Source: Bacteroidota bacterium
GTDB lineage: Bacteria; Bacteroidota; Ignavibacteria; Ignavibacteriales; Melioribacteraceae
Direction of reading: 5' to 3'
DNA length: 64,000 nucleotides
Assembly (NCBI GenBank): GCA_018829205.1
Contig: JAHJUE010000023.1
Coordinates: 62,001 to 126,000 of the forward strand
Below the pieces are notes generated by a model, which did not search any database, had not been told where the DNA came from, and saw nothing but the letters and a program-made list of their open reading frames with translations. The position numbers and the translations under genes are program-made. The stretch's first letter is position 1. Each line of letters starts with the position of its first letter. Of the stretch, positions 39,016-52,441 are shown in pieces.

Positions 39016-40635
39016 ATGAATTTTAGAAAATATATACTGCCTTTTTTATTGATTACCGCCGCTTTATCATCAGCTTTAGTTATAAGCAGCTGCGATATTA
39101 AATCGCCTACAGAAGGAATTGAAGTACGATTAAATACAAAAACAAGAGAAACGCTAGTTAATACTTATTTTTACGACGCGAATACAAAAAACTCAATTTC
39201 GCAAAATGTAAAAGTTACATTCTCGGGAAGTAATGCTTCAAAAATTACCGACGAGACAAACGATCCAAAAACTGTTTTTACCGCTGAAAACGGTATACTA
39301 TTATTCGGTATTAAGGACGGCACGGAGTTTTCGGAATCAGCTCCTTTTAGCGTTACATTAAAAATGGAAGCTTCGGGTTATGAGACAAAAACTGAAGTAT
39401 TAAAAATAACTTCAAAGGGCATTCAAACATATGATATGTTTTTAGTAAATCCGGCTACACTTCCTCAAAACGCGGATCAGGGCACAGGAACAGGAAGTAC
39501 CAATAATACAGGTACAACAACTTCAAACGTGCAATTAACAACCGGCGGAGGAACTACGGTTAATATTCCATCCGGCACGCAAATCACTACAAGCACGGGA
39601 ACTCCGTTAACAGGAAATATCAGCGTAAACATTACAACAATTCCAATTACGGCACAAAATATTTATAATGTACCTCAGAACTTAGCAGTATCAACCACAC
39701 AAACAATTGCTCCTGCAATTAGTATTGATTTAAGTATTACGGATCAAAACGGAAACAGTTCTAATAATGAAATTGAAATTTCTGTTCCTTTAGCAGATGG
39801 TATTGTAAATCCAAGAACCGGGAATGAATATCAAGCCGGTGATACCATGGGATTTTTCAGGTTTAACGCGACGACCGGTTTGTGGGAAAAAGTTGGCAAT
39901 GGTACAGTTACCGGATCGCTTCCCAAAAAATCACTTCGTAAAATAAATGCCGGCCGTTATGTCGGCGGTGCAGTTGTTGCAGGAGCAGTAATCATAGCCG
40001 GGAATGATGAAACCAATTGTAGTGCAGTACTTACAGTGGCAAACATACCTTCCGGTTTCAATAATTCTTCTTTAAGATTTTTTAATGCCGAAGGAAATAG
40101 AATGAATCCATCAAACAGCGGATCAAACTTCTATTTTGAAATTCCTGACGGAGGAACAACAATTGCTTCAATAAGAATAAACGCGGATTTAAATGATCCT
40201 TTTAATACCGGGACTCAATTAGGCAGCAATATCGCTCTTTCATGCGGAAGTAATTCTACGTCGCTAAATTTTCCAAGCAACTTAGTCGGTGCCCAATTTG
40301 AGATTATAGGCGTATGTACTTCCAAAGATCCTGTTGTTGAAGTATTCCCAAATGCGTCTTTCAGTTACAGACAGGTCGGAACTCAAACATGGCAAAGCGG
40401 AAGTTTAGTAAACGGTAGAGCTACTATTACAGGTTTAGTCGTAGGTGCTTCTTATGAAGTAACAACATCTTACAGAGGCAACACCGGTAACGCGCAGGTA
40501 AAAATTACTAGCTCATCAATAATTGATATATTGCAAATAAGCAATCCTGAAAACCTTCTTTCACAAGAAGTAGATGAGACGACAAATCCTGCTACCGTAA
40601 AACTTTCAATTGATATTGGAAACGAATGTGATTAG
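39016..40635 (+). CDS. Large lipoprotein-like exported protein of unknown function
   Basis: 539 residues. Hydrophobic signal with 'ALVISSCDIKSP' (Cys after SS, lipoprotein-like). Then a carboxypeptidase-regulatory-like or Ig-like beta region ('SAPFSVTLKMEASGYETKTE'), a Gly/Thr/Asn-rich linker (about residues 154-172), a ZU5-like stretch ('VQLTTGGGTTVNIPSGTQIT'), 'RNEY'-type 'NPRTGNEYQAGDTMGFFRF', and further beta domains to the C-terminus. GAGGAG lies 9 nt before the ATG. The protein probably faces the periplasm or cell surface and may pair with the barrel protein encoded just upstream; that link rests on gene order only. An intrinsic terminator follows. Confidence 0.7.
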   Translation: MNFRKYILPFLLITAALSSALVISSCDIKSPTEGIEVRLNTKTRETLVNTYFYDANTKNSISQNVKVTFSGSNASKITDETNDPKTVFTAENGILLFGIKDGTEFSESAPFSVTLKMEASGYETKTEVLKITSKGIQTYDMFLVNPATLPQNADQGTGTGSTNNTGTTTSNVQLTTGGGTTVNIPSGTQITTSTGTPLTGNISVNITTIPITAQNIYNVPQNLAVSTTQTIAPAISIDLSITDQNGNSSNNEIEISVPLADGIVNPRTGNEYQAGDTMGFFRFNATTGLWEKVGNGTVTGSLPKKSLRKINAGRYVGGAVVAGAVIIAGNDETNCSAVLTVANIPSGFNNSSLRFFNAEGNRMNPSNSGSNFYFEIPDGGTTIASIRINADLNDPFNTGTQLGSNIALSCGSNSTSLNFPSNLVGAQFEIIGVCTSKDPVVEVFPNASFSYRQVGTQTWQSGSLVNGRATITGLVVGASYEVTTSYRGNTGNAQVKITSSSIIDILQISNPENLLSQEVDETTNPATVKLSIDIGNECD

Positions 40636-49509: not shown

Positions 49510-49917
49510 TTACGGTAGTTTAGATTTTATCATATTAAAAATATAAACACCAGCTACTGCCCCTACAAGTGTAGCTACCGCAGCGCTTTCTCCGGCTCCT
49601 ATCTGCGCAAAAATTGGCCCTGGACATGCGCCTGTTATTGCCCATCCAATACCGAAAATTATTCCCCCGATAACAGTGCCTTTATTTAAATCTTTGCCAG
49701 GGAATTCAATTTTTTCTTTTGTGAAACTTTTCATTTTAATTTTTTTAAGTATTAATACAGAAAACGCACCTACGGCAACAGCAGTACCAATTATCAAATA
49801 CATATAAGGTTCTTCAAAAAGAAACATTTTCTGAATTCTAAACCAGCTAATAACTTCGGACTTCGTTAATATTACACCAAATATTATACCCGATAAAATT
49901 GATATATAATTATTCAT
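49510..49917 (-). CDS. YeeE/YedE half-transporter, C-terminal-type half
   Basis: 135 residues with four predicted helices and the conserved 'GWAITGACPGPIFAQIGAGE' (Cys98). In full-length YeeE (thiosulfate permease TsuA) this GACPGP segment and the partner's GCTSGH segment line the substrate path, where cysteines relay the sulfur compound. Here the two halves are separate proteins, the upstream gene supplying the other. It is the last gene of the metZ operon. Transport of thiosulfate or another sulfane-sulfur compound is an inference from family and context. Confidence 0.85.
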   Translation of the reverse strand: MNNYISILSGIIFGVILTKSEVISWFRIQKMFLFEEPYMYLIIGTAVAVGAFSVLILKKIKMKSFTKEKIEFPGKDLNKGTVIGGIIFGIGWAITGACPGPIFAQIGAGESAAVATLVGAVAGVYIFNMIKSKLP

Positions 49918-49932
49918 TTATTTTCCATACGG

Positions 49933-50409
49933 TTAAAGAACAAAATAGTTTATAAAAGTGAAAATTAGTCCGCCGATAAAAAAAGAAACTGTAGCCGCAA
50001 GACTTGATTTTTGTAATAATGCAAGGCCCGTAATTGAATGACCGGAAGTGCATCCGTTAGCGTATCTTGTCCCGAATCCGACTAACAAACCTCCGATAAA
50101 TAATTTTACTAATCCGGTTAAAGAATAATATTCCTCGGGCAGAAAATTAATTTCACCTGCGGAAAAATAATTTGAAGCAATAAATCCGCCTAGAATAATT
50201 CCGAGTACAAAATAGAACTTCCATTTATGTTCTTTGAAATCGTAATTCAGAAGGTTAACGGAAATTTTCTTTGGAATAACAAGAGAACATAAATGAATTA
50301 AAGAAGAGGAAAGACCGAACAGTTTGTTCCCGATAATTAAGGTTAATGGTACAAACAGTCCTATTGCAATTCCGTATATCATCCAATCCAAATTTTCAAA
50401 TATTGACAT
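49933..50409 (-). CDS. YeeE/YedE half-transporter, N-terminal-type half
   Basis: 158 residues, about five helices, with 'GFGTRYANGCTSGHSITGLA' carrying the conserved Cys120 of the YeeE/YedE (sulf_transp) family. It pairs with the 135-residue protein encoded 15 nt downstream. Split two-gene forms are common in Bacteroidota and often sit beside sulfur-handling enzymes, as here (OsmC and a sulfhydrylase upstream). Confidence 0.87.
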   Translation of the reverse strand: MSIFENLDWMIYGIAIGLFVPLTLIIGNKLFGLSSSLIHLCSLVIPKKISVNLLNYDFKEHKWKFYFVLGIILGGFIASNYFSAGEINFLPEEYYSLTGLVKLFIGGLLVGFGTRYANGCTSGHSITGLALLQKSSLAATVSFFIGGLIFTFINYFVL

Positions 50410-50446: not shown

Positions 50447-50863
50447 TTATTCATTAACACTGAAACCATATTTTATATCAACAGATTTCCTAATAACCGC
50501 CGCGGCAGAACAATACTTTTCCATAGATAATTCAACCGCTCTTCCGGCTTTTTCTTTTTCAATATTTCCCGATAAATAAAAATGTATATAAATATTTTCG
50601 AAAACCGAAGGCGTTTTGTCTTTTTCACGTCCGGCTTCAACAACAATTTTAAATTCCTCAATATTCTGTTTTTGTTTCTTTAAAATGTTAACAATATCAA
50701 TTCCGCTGCATCCGCCCAATCCCATTAATAATAATTCCATAGGACGCGCCCCCATGTTATGACCGCCTATTGCCGGAGCCGCGTCAATATTAACCGCAAT
50801 GCCAGTCGATCCTTTGGCTTCAAAATGAAAATCTTTATCTATTCTATTAATTTCTATTTTCAT
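50447..50863 (-). CDS. OsmC family peroxiredoxin-like protein
   Basis: 138 residues. The two reactive cysteines of the OsmC/Ohr fold are visible: Cys52 in 'LLMGLGGCSGIDIVNIL' and Cys118 in 'ELSMEKYCSAAAVI'. The family reduces hydroperoxides, and some members act on persulfides. AGGAATTTT precedes the ATG, 7 nt after the metZ stop. Its place between metZ and two sulfur transporters suggests a role in handling reactive sulfur or thiol intermediates, but this is inference from context. Confidence 0.9.
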   Translation of the reverse strand: MKIEINRIDKDFHFEAKGSTGIAVNIDAAPAIGGHNMGARPMELLLMGLGGCSGIDIVNILKKQKQNIEEFKIVVEAGREKDKTPSVFENIYIHFYLSGNIEKEKAGRAVELSMEKYCSAAAVIRKSVDIKYGFSVNE

Positions 50864-50870
50864 AAAATTC

Positions 50871-52037
50871 CTATTTAGATTTCTGCAACGCTTGGGTTAT
50901 ATCTTCAATTATATCGTTTATATTTTCAAGTCCGACCGAAACTCGCACTGTCCCCGGATATATCCCGACACTTTTTCTTTCATCATCGGTTAATTTAGAA
51001 TGAGTAGTTGAAGCCGGATGGGTTATAATAGTTCTTGTATCACCCAGGTTCGCTGTTTTAGAAGCCATATTTAACGCATCAATAAAATTCCTTGCACGAT
51101 CGTAACCTCCTTTTAAAATCAGCGTTACAATTCCGCCTCCCATTTTCATCTGTTTTTTGGATAGCTCGTATTGGGGATGCGAAGCAAGCATAGGATATTT
51201 TACTAATTCCAATTCCGAATTGCCTTCAAATATTTTCGCTAATTCAAATGCGTTTGAACAATGTTTTTCCATCCTAATTGAAAGTGTTTCAAGACTTTTT
51301 GATAAAATCCATGCATTAAATGGCGAAAGTGACGGACCGGTTTGTCTTGCGAAATAACGGATTTCTTTAATTAATTCTTTATTGCCGACTATAACCCCGC
51401 CAATTACTCTTCCCTGCCCGTCAATATATTTTGTTGCCGAATGAGTAACCAGATCGGCGCCGTAATCAATTGGGGTCTGCAGATACGGGGTAGCAAAACA
51501 ATTATCCACATTTAAAATTAGATTATGTTTTTTCTTAAGCTTACCTAAAAATTCTAGGTCGATAATTTCGAGTCCGGGATTCGAAGGAGTTTCGGCAAAT
51601 ATCATTTTCGTGTTTTCGCGAATATTATCTTCCCATTGTTCGGGTTTGTCGGCATCAACATAGGTAAATTCAATTCCCCACTTAGGCAGAATTTTTGTAA
51701 GTATTTGGTGGGTTGAACCGAACAATGAGCGCGAAGATAAAATGTGATCGCCTTTAGAAAGCAGAGAAGCGAATCCGGCAAATACTGCCGCCATACCGGA
51801 AGCGAACGCAAATCCGTCTTCTGCATTTTCCAGCTCGGCCATTTTTAATACAAATTCGGAAGTATTTGGATTTGAAAATCTTGAATAAATATTTCCTTCT
51901 ATTTCATCGGCAAAAAGTGCTCTTCCGTGTTCAGCATTTTCAAAAAGGAAACTGGAAGTTAAATACAGAGGAACCGAATGTTCGTTGTGAATACTTTTTC
52001 CGGCTTGAGTTCGTATAGCTTTGGTTTCTTTCTTCAT
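50871..52037 (-). CDS. metZ: Cys/Met-metabolism PLP enzyme, O-succinylhomoserine sulfhydrylase-like
   Basis: Forms homocysteine from an activated homoserine and sulfide, within the gamma-family of PLP enzymes. I use the ATG at 52037 (388 residues, 'MKKETKAIRTQAGKSIHNEH'); the longer frame runs into the terminator hairpin. Motifs are 'NIYSRFSNPNTSEF', 'AFASGMAAVFAGFASLLSKG', 'AETPSNPGLEIIDL', the PLP-lysine segment 'VTHSATKYIDGQGRVIGGVI' and 'TRTIITHPASTTHSKLTDDE'. Length and motifs fit MetZ best. Cystathionine gamma-synthase or methionine gamma-lyase are alternatives not excluded by eye. It is the first gene of a metZ-osmC-yeeE-yedE operon controlled by the leader described next. Confidence 0.85.
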   Translation of the reverse strand: MKKETKAIRTQAGKSIHNEHSVPLYLTSSFLFENAEHGRALFADEIEGNIYSRFSNPNTSEFVLKMAELENAEDGFAFASGMAAVFAGFASLLSKGDHILSSRSLFGSTHQILTKILPKWGIEFTYVDADKPEQWEDNIRENTKMIFAETPSNPGLEIIDLEFLGKLKKKHNLILNVDNCFATPYLQTPIDYGADLVTHSATKYIDGQGRVIGGVIVGNKELIKEIRYFARQTGPSLSPFNAWILSKSLETLSIRMEKHCSNAFELAKIFEGNSELELVKYPMLASHPQYELSKKQMKMGGGIVTLILKGGYDRARNFIDALNMASKTANLGDTRTIITHPASTTHSKLTDDERKSVGIYPGTVRVSVGLENINDIIEDITQALQKSK

Positions 52038-52061: not shown

Positions 52062-52100
52062 AAAAAAAAAGTCCTTCAAGTTAATTTTGAAAGACTTTTT
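52062..52100 (-). terminator. Attenuator terminator before metZ
   Basis: On the minus strand the arms 52100-52087 and 52079-52066 form a 14-bp stem with one G:U pair and a 7-nt loop, followed by nine T (52070-52062). It ends 25 nt before the metZ ATG. The G:U pair makes the stem work only as minus-strand RNA. Confidence 0.8.
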
Positions 52101-52123
52101 AAAAAGTTATTTCTAGTCTCTCA
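52088..52123 (-). promoter_or_regulatory. Antiterminator helix of the metZ leader
   Basis: TGAGAGACT (52123-52115), which begins with the leader stop codon, can pair with AGTCTTTCA (52096-52088), the 5' arm of the terminator: nine consecutive pairs with one G:U. The two structures exclude each other. Confidence 0.65.
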
Positions 52124-52192
52124 GCAATTTAAATTATTACATTTACAAATTTCATTTAGTATTGCCTGTATTATTTTCATATAGTAATTCAT
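52121..52192 (-). CDS. Cysteine-containing leader peptide of the metZ operon
   Basis: A 23-codon frame on the minus strand, ATG at 52192 (a second ATG four codons later), TGA at 52123-52121. It encodes 'MNYYMKIIQAILNEI' followed by eight residues in which Cys occurs at positions 1, 3 and 8. The three Cys codons are 52147-52145, 52141-52139 and 52126-52124. Cys is normally about 1% of residues, so three in eight at the end of a short frame just before a terminator is a leader-peptide signature. AAAGTGA about 6 nt before the ATG may serve as ribosome-binding site. The likely role is translation-dependent control of the downstream sulfur genes by cysteinyl-tRNA supply. The inference rests on sequence layout; no homologue was compared. 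Confidence 0.7.
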   Translation of the reverse strand: MNYYMKIIQAILNEICKCNNLNC

Positions 52193-52327: not shown

Positions 52328-52336
52328 AGAAAGTTT

Positions 52337-52441
52337 GCTCATTCCGGTTATGCCTTAGATGGTACTCCGGAAGTACGAGCAATAATCACAAGATGAGATA
52401 CTCTTGTGGCATCCCTCCGGCAACGGAGGGATTTTTTTTTA
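52337..52441 (+). ncRNA. Candidate small RNA with three stem-loops and its own terminator
   Basis: There is no coding frame, but three stems occur in order. GTACT/AGTAC (52362-52376) is closed outside by GCTC/GAGC (52337-52340 with 52377-52380). CACAAGA/TCTTGTG is at 52387-52408. ATCCCTCCG/CGGAGGGAT (52411-52432) has a GCAA tetraloop and is followed by ten T. The U-run exists only on the plus strand, so the transcript runs on plus, away from metZ. I do not recognise an RNA family (it does not look like 4.5S, 6S or tmRNA). About 105 nt. Confidence 0.55.

Follow-up and report, generated by a model that had tools for sequence, protein, structure and literature searches.

A putative cysteine-reading transcription attenuator before the metZ-osmC-yeeE-yeeE operon of an Ignavibacteria genome

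The leader of the metZ-osmC-yeeE-yeeE operon in the window, which is the whole 64-kb stretch of DNA that was analyzed, is very probably a ribosome-mediated transcription attenuator that would read the supply of charged Cys-tRNA. An earlier note had proposed a cysteine-sensing attenuator at this position from the letters of the DNA, and the interpretation is supported here by comparative sequence evidence, for which no expression data are available.

As shown in Table 1, a frame of 23 codons precedes metZ on the minus strand, and Cys occupies codons 16, 18, and 23, that is, three of its last eight codons, as the earlier note had read. The stop codon is the first triplet of TGAGAGACT, which forms nine base pairs with the 5′ arm of the intrinsic terminator lying between the leader and metZ, so that formation of the antiterminator excludes the terminator. 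The 14-bp stem and the nine U of this terminator were also found as described, and only the distance to metZ required correction: 24 nt were counted between the last U of the terminator and the metZ ATG (52037) instead of 25 nt. At Cys23, a ribosome would cover the antiterminator strand, so this codon cannot serve for control. The region that separates the metZ leader from the upstream gene (52330–52432) contains a strong terminator-like inverted repeat (52411–52432) and more inverted repeats.

Table 1. Elements of the putative attenuator and the genes downstream of it (window coordinates; here and in the text, leader peptides are given up to their stop codons).
Feature	Coordinates	Strand	Description	Basis
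Leader peptide ORF	52121..52192	−	MNYYMKIIQAILNEICKCNNLNC, 23 codons, ATG...TGC TGA; stop TGA 52123–52121	Sequence, sole detector match in window, conserved geometry
Putative control codons Cys16 (52147–52145) and Cys18 (52141–52139)	52139..52147	−	24 and 18 nt before the stop	
Cys23 codon	52126–52124	−	Adjoins the stop; too near the stop to act	
Antiterminator strand TGAGAGACT	52115..52123	−	Contains the leader stop codon; 9 bp with AGTCTTTCA	
Terminator hairpin AAAAAGTCTTTC...GAAGGACTTTTT	52066..52100	−	14-bp stem	
U9 tract of the terminator	52062..52070	−	Overlaps the 3′ arm	Sequence
metZ-like gene, Cys/Met metabolism PLP enzyme	50871..52037	−	Best NCBIfam models O-succinylhomoserine sulfhydrylase, below cut-offs	
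OsmC-family gene, in the metZ operon	50447..50863	−		
YeeE/YedE-type sulfur transporter half	49933..50409	−	PF04143	
Second YeeE/YedE-type sulfur transporter half	49510..49917	−	PF04143	

No match to the PAPS-reductase family was obtained in the genome of the window (G000) at E ≤ 1e-30, and this absence agrees with a dependence on reduced sulfur sources, although such a dependence is an inference.

The arrangement of these elements was compared with that in shuffled sequences. At least two correctly placed Cys codons in an ATG frame whose end lay at the right distance occurred in 0.15% of the dinucleotide shuffles of the window sequence, and pairing of the stop region with the 5′ arm of the terminator as strong as that in G000 had a probability of P = 0.0007. 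In all 10 metZ leaders, the stop region was more complementary to the terminator arm than expected by chance, with P values from 0.0007 to 0.0087. A purpose-written detector, which searches for a terminator, an antiterminator, and a short frame ending on the antiterminator, gave exactly one match on both strands of the 64-kb window, namely, the metZ leader. In 1.94 Mb of G000 (42% of the genome, as the scan was incomplete), the detector gave 12 matches including the metZ leader; the 11 others had no evident fitting operon and were judged to be due to chance. The frame MSEGGGAVSAWFASP at locus L209 was also judged to be due to chance. The detector requires an antiterminator of 7 bp, and weaker ones, such as that of the metY leader of G000 itself, are missed. 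A second scan, based only on amino-acid content and a terminator, returned the metZ site, the metY site, and three sites without evident meaning. On another contig of G000 (C3; L274, 2262–2319), a glutamine-amidotransferase-like gene is preceded by the frame MIILKCLKCIYSMMGKNSK and then a terminator; the frame resembles a leader and is probably due to chance.

In the proposed mechanism, RNA polymerase would transcribe the leader and be followed closely by a ribosome. When Cys-tRNA is plentiful, the ribosome would get to the stop codon within the antiterminator strand and cover this strand; the terminator, its 5′ arm being free, would then fold, and transcription would end before metZ. When Cys-tRNA is scarce, the ribosome would pause at Cys16 or Cys18, leaving the region of the stop codon bare, and this region would pair with the emerging 5′ arm of the terminator, so that the polymerase would pass the U tract. 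Translation of the leader, stalling of the ribosome, and the direction of the regulation are inferred. The two ribosome positions were examined by constrained folding of the nascent transcript, where the ribosome was assumed to cover 17 nt upstream and 13 nt downstream of the first base of the A-site codon. With this footprint, the expectation that a ribosome stalled at either of the first two Cys codons leaves TGAGAGACT free was met in G000, since the clearance is 10 nt at Cys16 and 4 nt at Cys18, with an antiterminator probability of 1.00 at both, and the companion expectation that a ribosome at the stop covers this strand was also met, the antiterminator being impossible there. The antiterminator probabilities were weaker in two relatives, 0.47 in G145 and 0.28 in G711. 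In a third, G030, the proximal CIC codons are too close to the antiterminator strand and fit the geometry poorly, so the upstream CC pair would have to act.

In the full transcript at equilibrium, the terminator beats the antiterminator in most sequences, including that of G000, which means that the choice must be kinetic and made during transcription. A protector (1:2) hairpin is usual in trp-type attenuators, though not universal, and brings about termination when the leader is untranslated. The corresponding criterion was not met here: without a ribosome, the antiterminator forms with P = 1.00 in G000. The device thus lacks the usual protection against read-through when the leader is untranslated.

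Relatives were collected by whole-genome searches for metZ and by a covariance model of the antiterminator plus the terminator. As the earlier note had suggested, the upstream regions of metZ homologues were compared, and the outcome was for the most part favorable to it. The unit, consisting of a Cys frame, an antiterminator on the stop codon, and an intrinsic terminator, was observed before metZ in a total of 11 genomes. Besides G000, these are G030, G129, G157, G144, and G145 of family f1 and G695, G711, G713, G660, and G342 of family f10, both families belonging to the class. In genus g78 of family f10, at least three genomes also carry it ahead of the YeeE pair, MKMRQFNITLSYIQCCLPVLLSS being one such leader. 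The unit was absent from four orthologues at the level of the order with readable upstream DNA (G024, G007, G109, and G120) and from six metZ genes of family f10. No leader-plus-terminator unit was found among the Bacteroidota metZ homologues in the loci L036–L090, L124–L126, and L128–L148, which were scanned for Cys frames, the scan for terminators being limited to L036–L090.

The metZ leader peptides of the relatives include MLKGRQNICCTNFGMWMHCICEEDL, MINGILNNCWCMNPF, MLRSLYLSHQLYWSVSCMCKKET, MILSLTKILFTKRRMLSCGCKILMLRE, MKSEVFNISMMCCLMLSSPS, and MPSQVNQIVSCCLKIFKPS; the sequences differ and have little else in common, and the geometry is kept. A Cys codon starts 15–30 nt upstream of the stop in 10 of the 10 measured metZ leaders, the antiterminator strand starts between −10 and +3 nt from the leader stop, and the intervening loop is 18–30 nt long. 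Seven of these leaders have at least two Cys codons in the right place, for which the shuffle probabilities were 0.001–0.015 per sequence, and three have one; Cys frames were part of what was searched for in assembling the set. A strong hairpin with a tract of U6–U9 lies between the leader and the gene in all the measured metZ leaders, at a distance from the metZ start that varies from 24 to 157 nt. In G342 (L122) and G660 (L149), the attenuator lies 114–157 nt from metZ because of repeat-rich extra sequence after the terminator. Compared with L122, the leaders of L149 and L151 contain a hairpin-like in-frame insert (CCTCGCCGTTTT.TGGCGGG) between the two Cys codons, with the frame and the position of the proximal Cys kept.

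Compensatory changes and codon-level conservation, both of which the earlier note had named as checks, gave divided results. In the terminator, 109 of 110 cells were paired across 10 genomes, and a double change from A-U to G-C was seen in four genomes. The core antiterminator pairs were kept in 69 of 70 cells, though the antiterminator strand varies; co-variation of this helix was nevertheless rejected as a main argument, because the 5′ arm of the terminator is nearly invariant, which limits helix co-variation, and shuffles reached the observed score. At the codon level, the position of the Cys codon is kept in all 10 leaders, and Cys is encoded by TGT (59) as well as TGC (20), which indicates that the residue is kept and not a DNA word. 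A synonymous/nonsynonymous test on related leader peptides found no excess of synonymous changes and no purifying selection outside the control codons.

Elsewhere in the order, further amino-acid operons are preceded by the same architecture, with a control residue that tracks the operon. Genes outside the window were named from their similarity to window proteins, from the locus-fetching search, or from a reading of the protein sequence, and not from a family search for each gene. The sulfate-assimilation operons cysH-cysDN have Cys leaders, such as MIKLNININCCMCINLKRGL and MKNEKQNIASKFNSMNACMCLCCINC, and in G109, a Cys leader ending in NCCTMMCCSCCLIC precedes a sulfite/nitrite reductase-like gene and is followed by a second leader (...CMCCCMMCS...). 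The metY-metX operons have Met leaders with some Cys, such as MKRIDINIAHIMMINMMMLFSLRTKGE and MKFFVKNNIFLKNLHSMMMCMMLFISKG, often with two attenuators in series. Tandem Met-rich leader attenuators were seen before metY at L325, L326, L327, L328, L330, L332, L334, and L335, each with its own terminator resembling AGCCCTTC...GAAGGGCT. One His leader, MKNFNNTYHHHHHSNALGVRR (...HHHHH...), precedes hisG in G046 (L218, 5997–6060), and one Trp leader (...FWWF...) precedes trpE in G034 (L181); these are classical attenuators in the same order. The Cys:Met counts in the leaders were 56:30 before metZ, yeeE, and cysH and 10:63 before metY, for which the Fisher test gave P = 3e-11. This value is too small because leaders within a genus are not independent.

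These observations bear on whether the metZ terminator could be an ordinary attenuating one, either constitutive or dependent on the growth rate, with the Cys frame arising by coincidence in an intergenic region that is small and AT-rich. In G024, which is closest by metZ sequence (77%), a terminator stands before metZ and a Cys frame is missing (L007), and the leader peptide is overall unconserved, both of which would be expected in that case. However, Cys frames stand in the right place in every measured leader, mostly at the low shuffle probabilities given above, and the leaders of other operons, which were found through the terminator/antiterminator model, carry codons fitting those operons. 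An ordinary terminator is therefore considered improbable.

The metY gene of G000 (L339, contig C39, about 1098–1500) is preceded by a Met/Cys leader, ending in NMAMCMCCMCNIGPR or MKIQIKNTSGKLNMAMCMCCMCNIGPR, with a terminator, and then by a SAM riboswitch (Rfam RF00162, 87.9 bits, gathering threshold 44.4), which has its own terminator-like hairpin and U tract. Two different sensors are thus arranged in series. At L351 (about 836–1101), a SAM riboswitch likewise follows a Cys leader attenuator, upstream of a short gene and cysH; in the group, SAM riboswitches (S-box) occur, for example, at L339, L351, and L376. It is reasonably likely, though with less assurance than for the metZ leader, that a family of codon-reading attenuators governs sulfur amino acid metabolism in this group, where Cys leaders would serve the use of thiosulfate and sulfate and mixed Met/Cys leaders, often two in series, would serve metY-metX. 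In some genomes including G000, the SAM riboswitch lies downstream of these, so that one operon may integrate Cys-tRNA, Met-tRNA, and SAM through successive terminators.

Control of translation can also be considered, in which a Cys stall opens a structure hiding the ribosome-binding site of metZ and termination is irrelevant, as for the polycysteine uORFs of mycobacteria. Cys-rich frames have been predicted before cys operons of Actinobacteria without clear terminators (Seliverstov et al. 2005, PMC1262725), and such frames in M. smegmatis are cited as translation attenuation (Canestrari et al. 2020, as cited in PMC13236596). This is a marginally weaker candidate than the ordinary terminator, because the hairpin and U tract found in all the measured metZ leaders, at the distances from the start given above, fit termination and not masking of the start site. 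The least credible possibility is that the terminator serves a metabolite-binding riboswitch or T-box and that the short frame is there incidentally, since, although the S-box occurs in this group and even before metY of G000, an Rfam search of window positions 40000–64000 found no riboswitch or T-box but only a tRNA, and the metZ leaders share only the terminator and the stop-codon strand, without a conserved block resembling an aptamer.

Amino-acid attenuators are textbook examples of regulation for the Trp, His, Leu, Thr, and branched-chain operons. The attenuation proposed for metZ resembles that of trpL, hisL, leuL, and thrL of proteobacteria in having a frame with control codons for the product of the operon and an antiterminator competing with an intrinsic terminator, where the position of the ribosome decides the outcome. 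Unlike these, the metZ leader would read Cys, has its stop codon within the antiterminator strand, has no effective 1:2 protector hairpin, and occurs in Ignavibacteria-type genomes. The Cys leaders of Actinobacteria are likewise short frames that precede cysteine or sulfur genes and have Cys codons close to their stops, but they have no evident terminators, whereas the metZ leader has an intrinsic terminator and an antiterminator. In Streptomyces lividans, a Met-dependent leader, metL (...CMCRRMC...), was proposed before metNIQ, for which no typical Rho-independent terminator was found (PMC8079986). The metY leaders are similar in being Met/Cys peptides before methionine genes, and they differ in that a terminator and an antiterminator strand are present, often with a second unit in tandem. 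The S-box and T-box share with the present system the transcription attenuation of metZ- and metY-type operons; however, they sense SAM or uncharged tRNA directly through RNA structure, and neither was matched at metZ. Ribosome-read attenuators are known, and the Cys or Met type with an intrinsic terminator appears to be new, as none was found for this phylum or elsewhere in the literature searched; a prior account in Lopatovskaya 2010 or Canestrari 2020 is not excluded.

The stop codon inside the antiterminator makes the design simple enough for the construction of reporters, and the tandem Met/Cys leaders, together with the order of a leader followed by a SAM riboswitch, represent serial RNA decisions that are directly testable. 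The recurrence of the unit in two families, with control codons that follow the operon, makes the system suitable for comparative tests in a phylum whose regulatory biology has been little studied.
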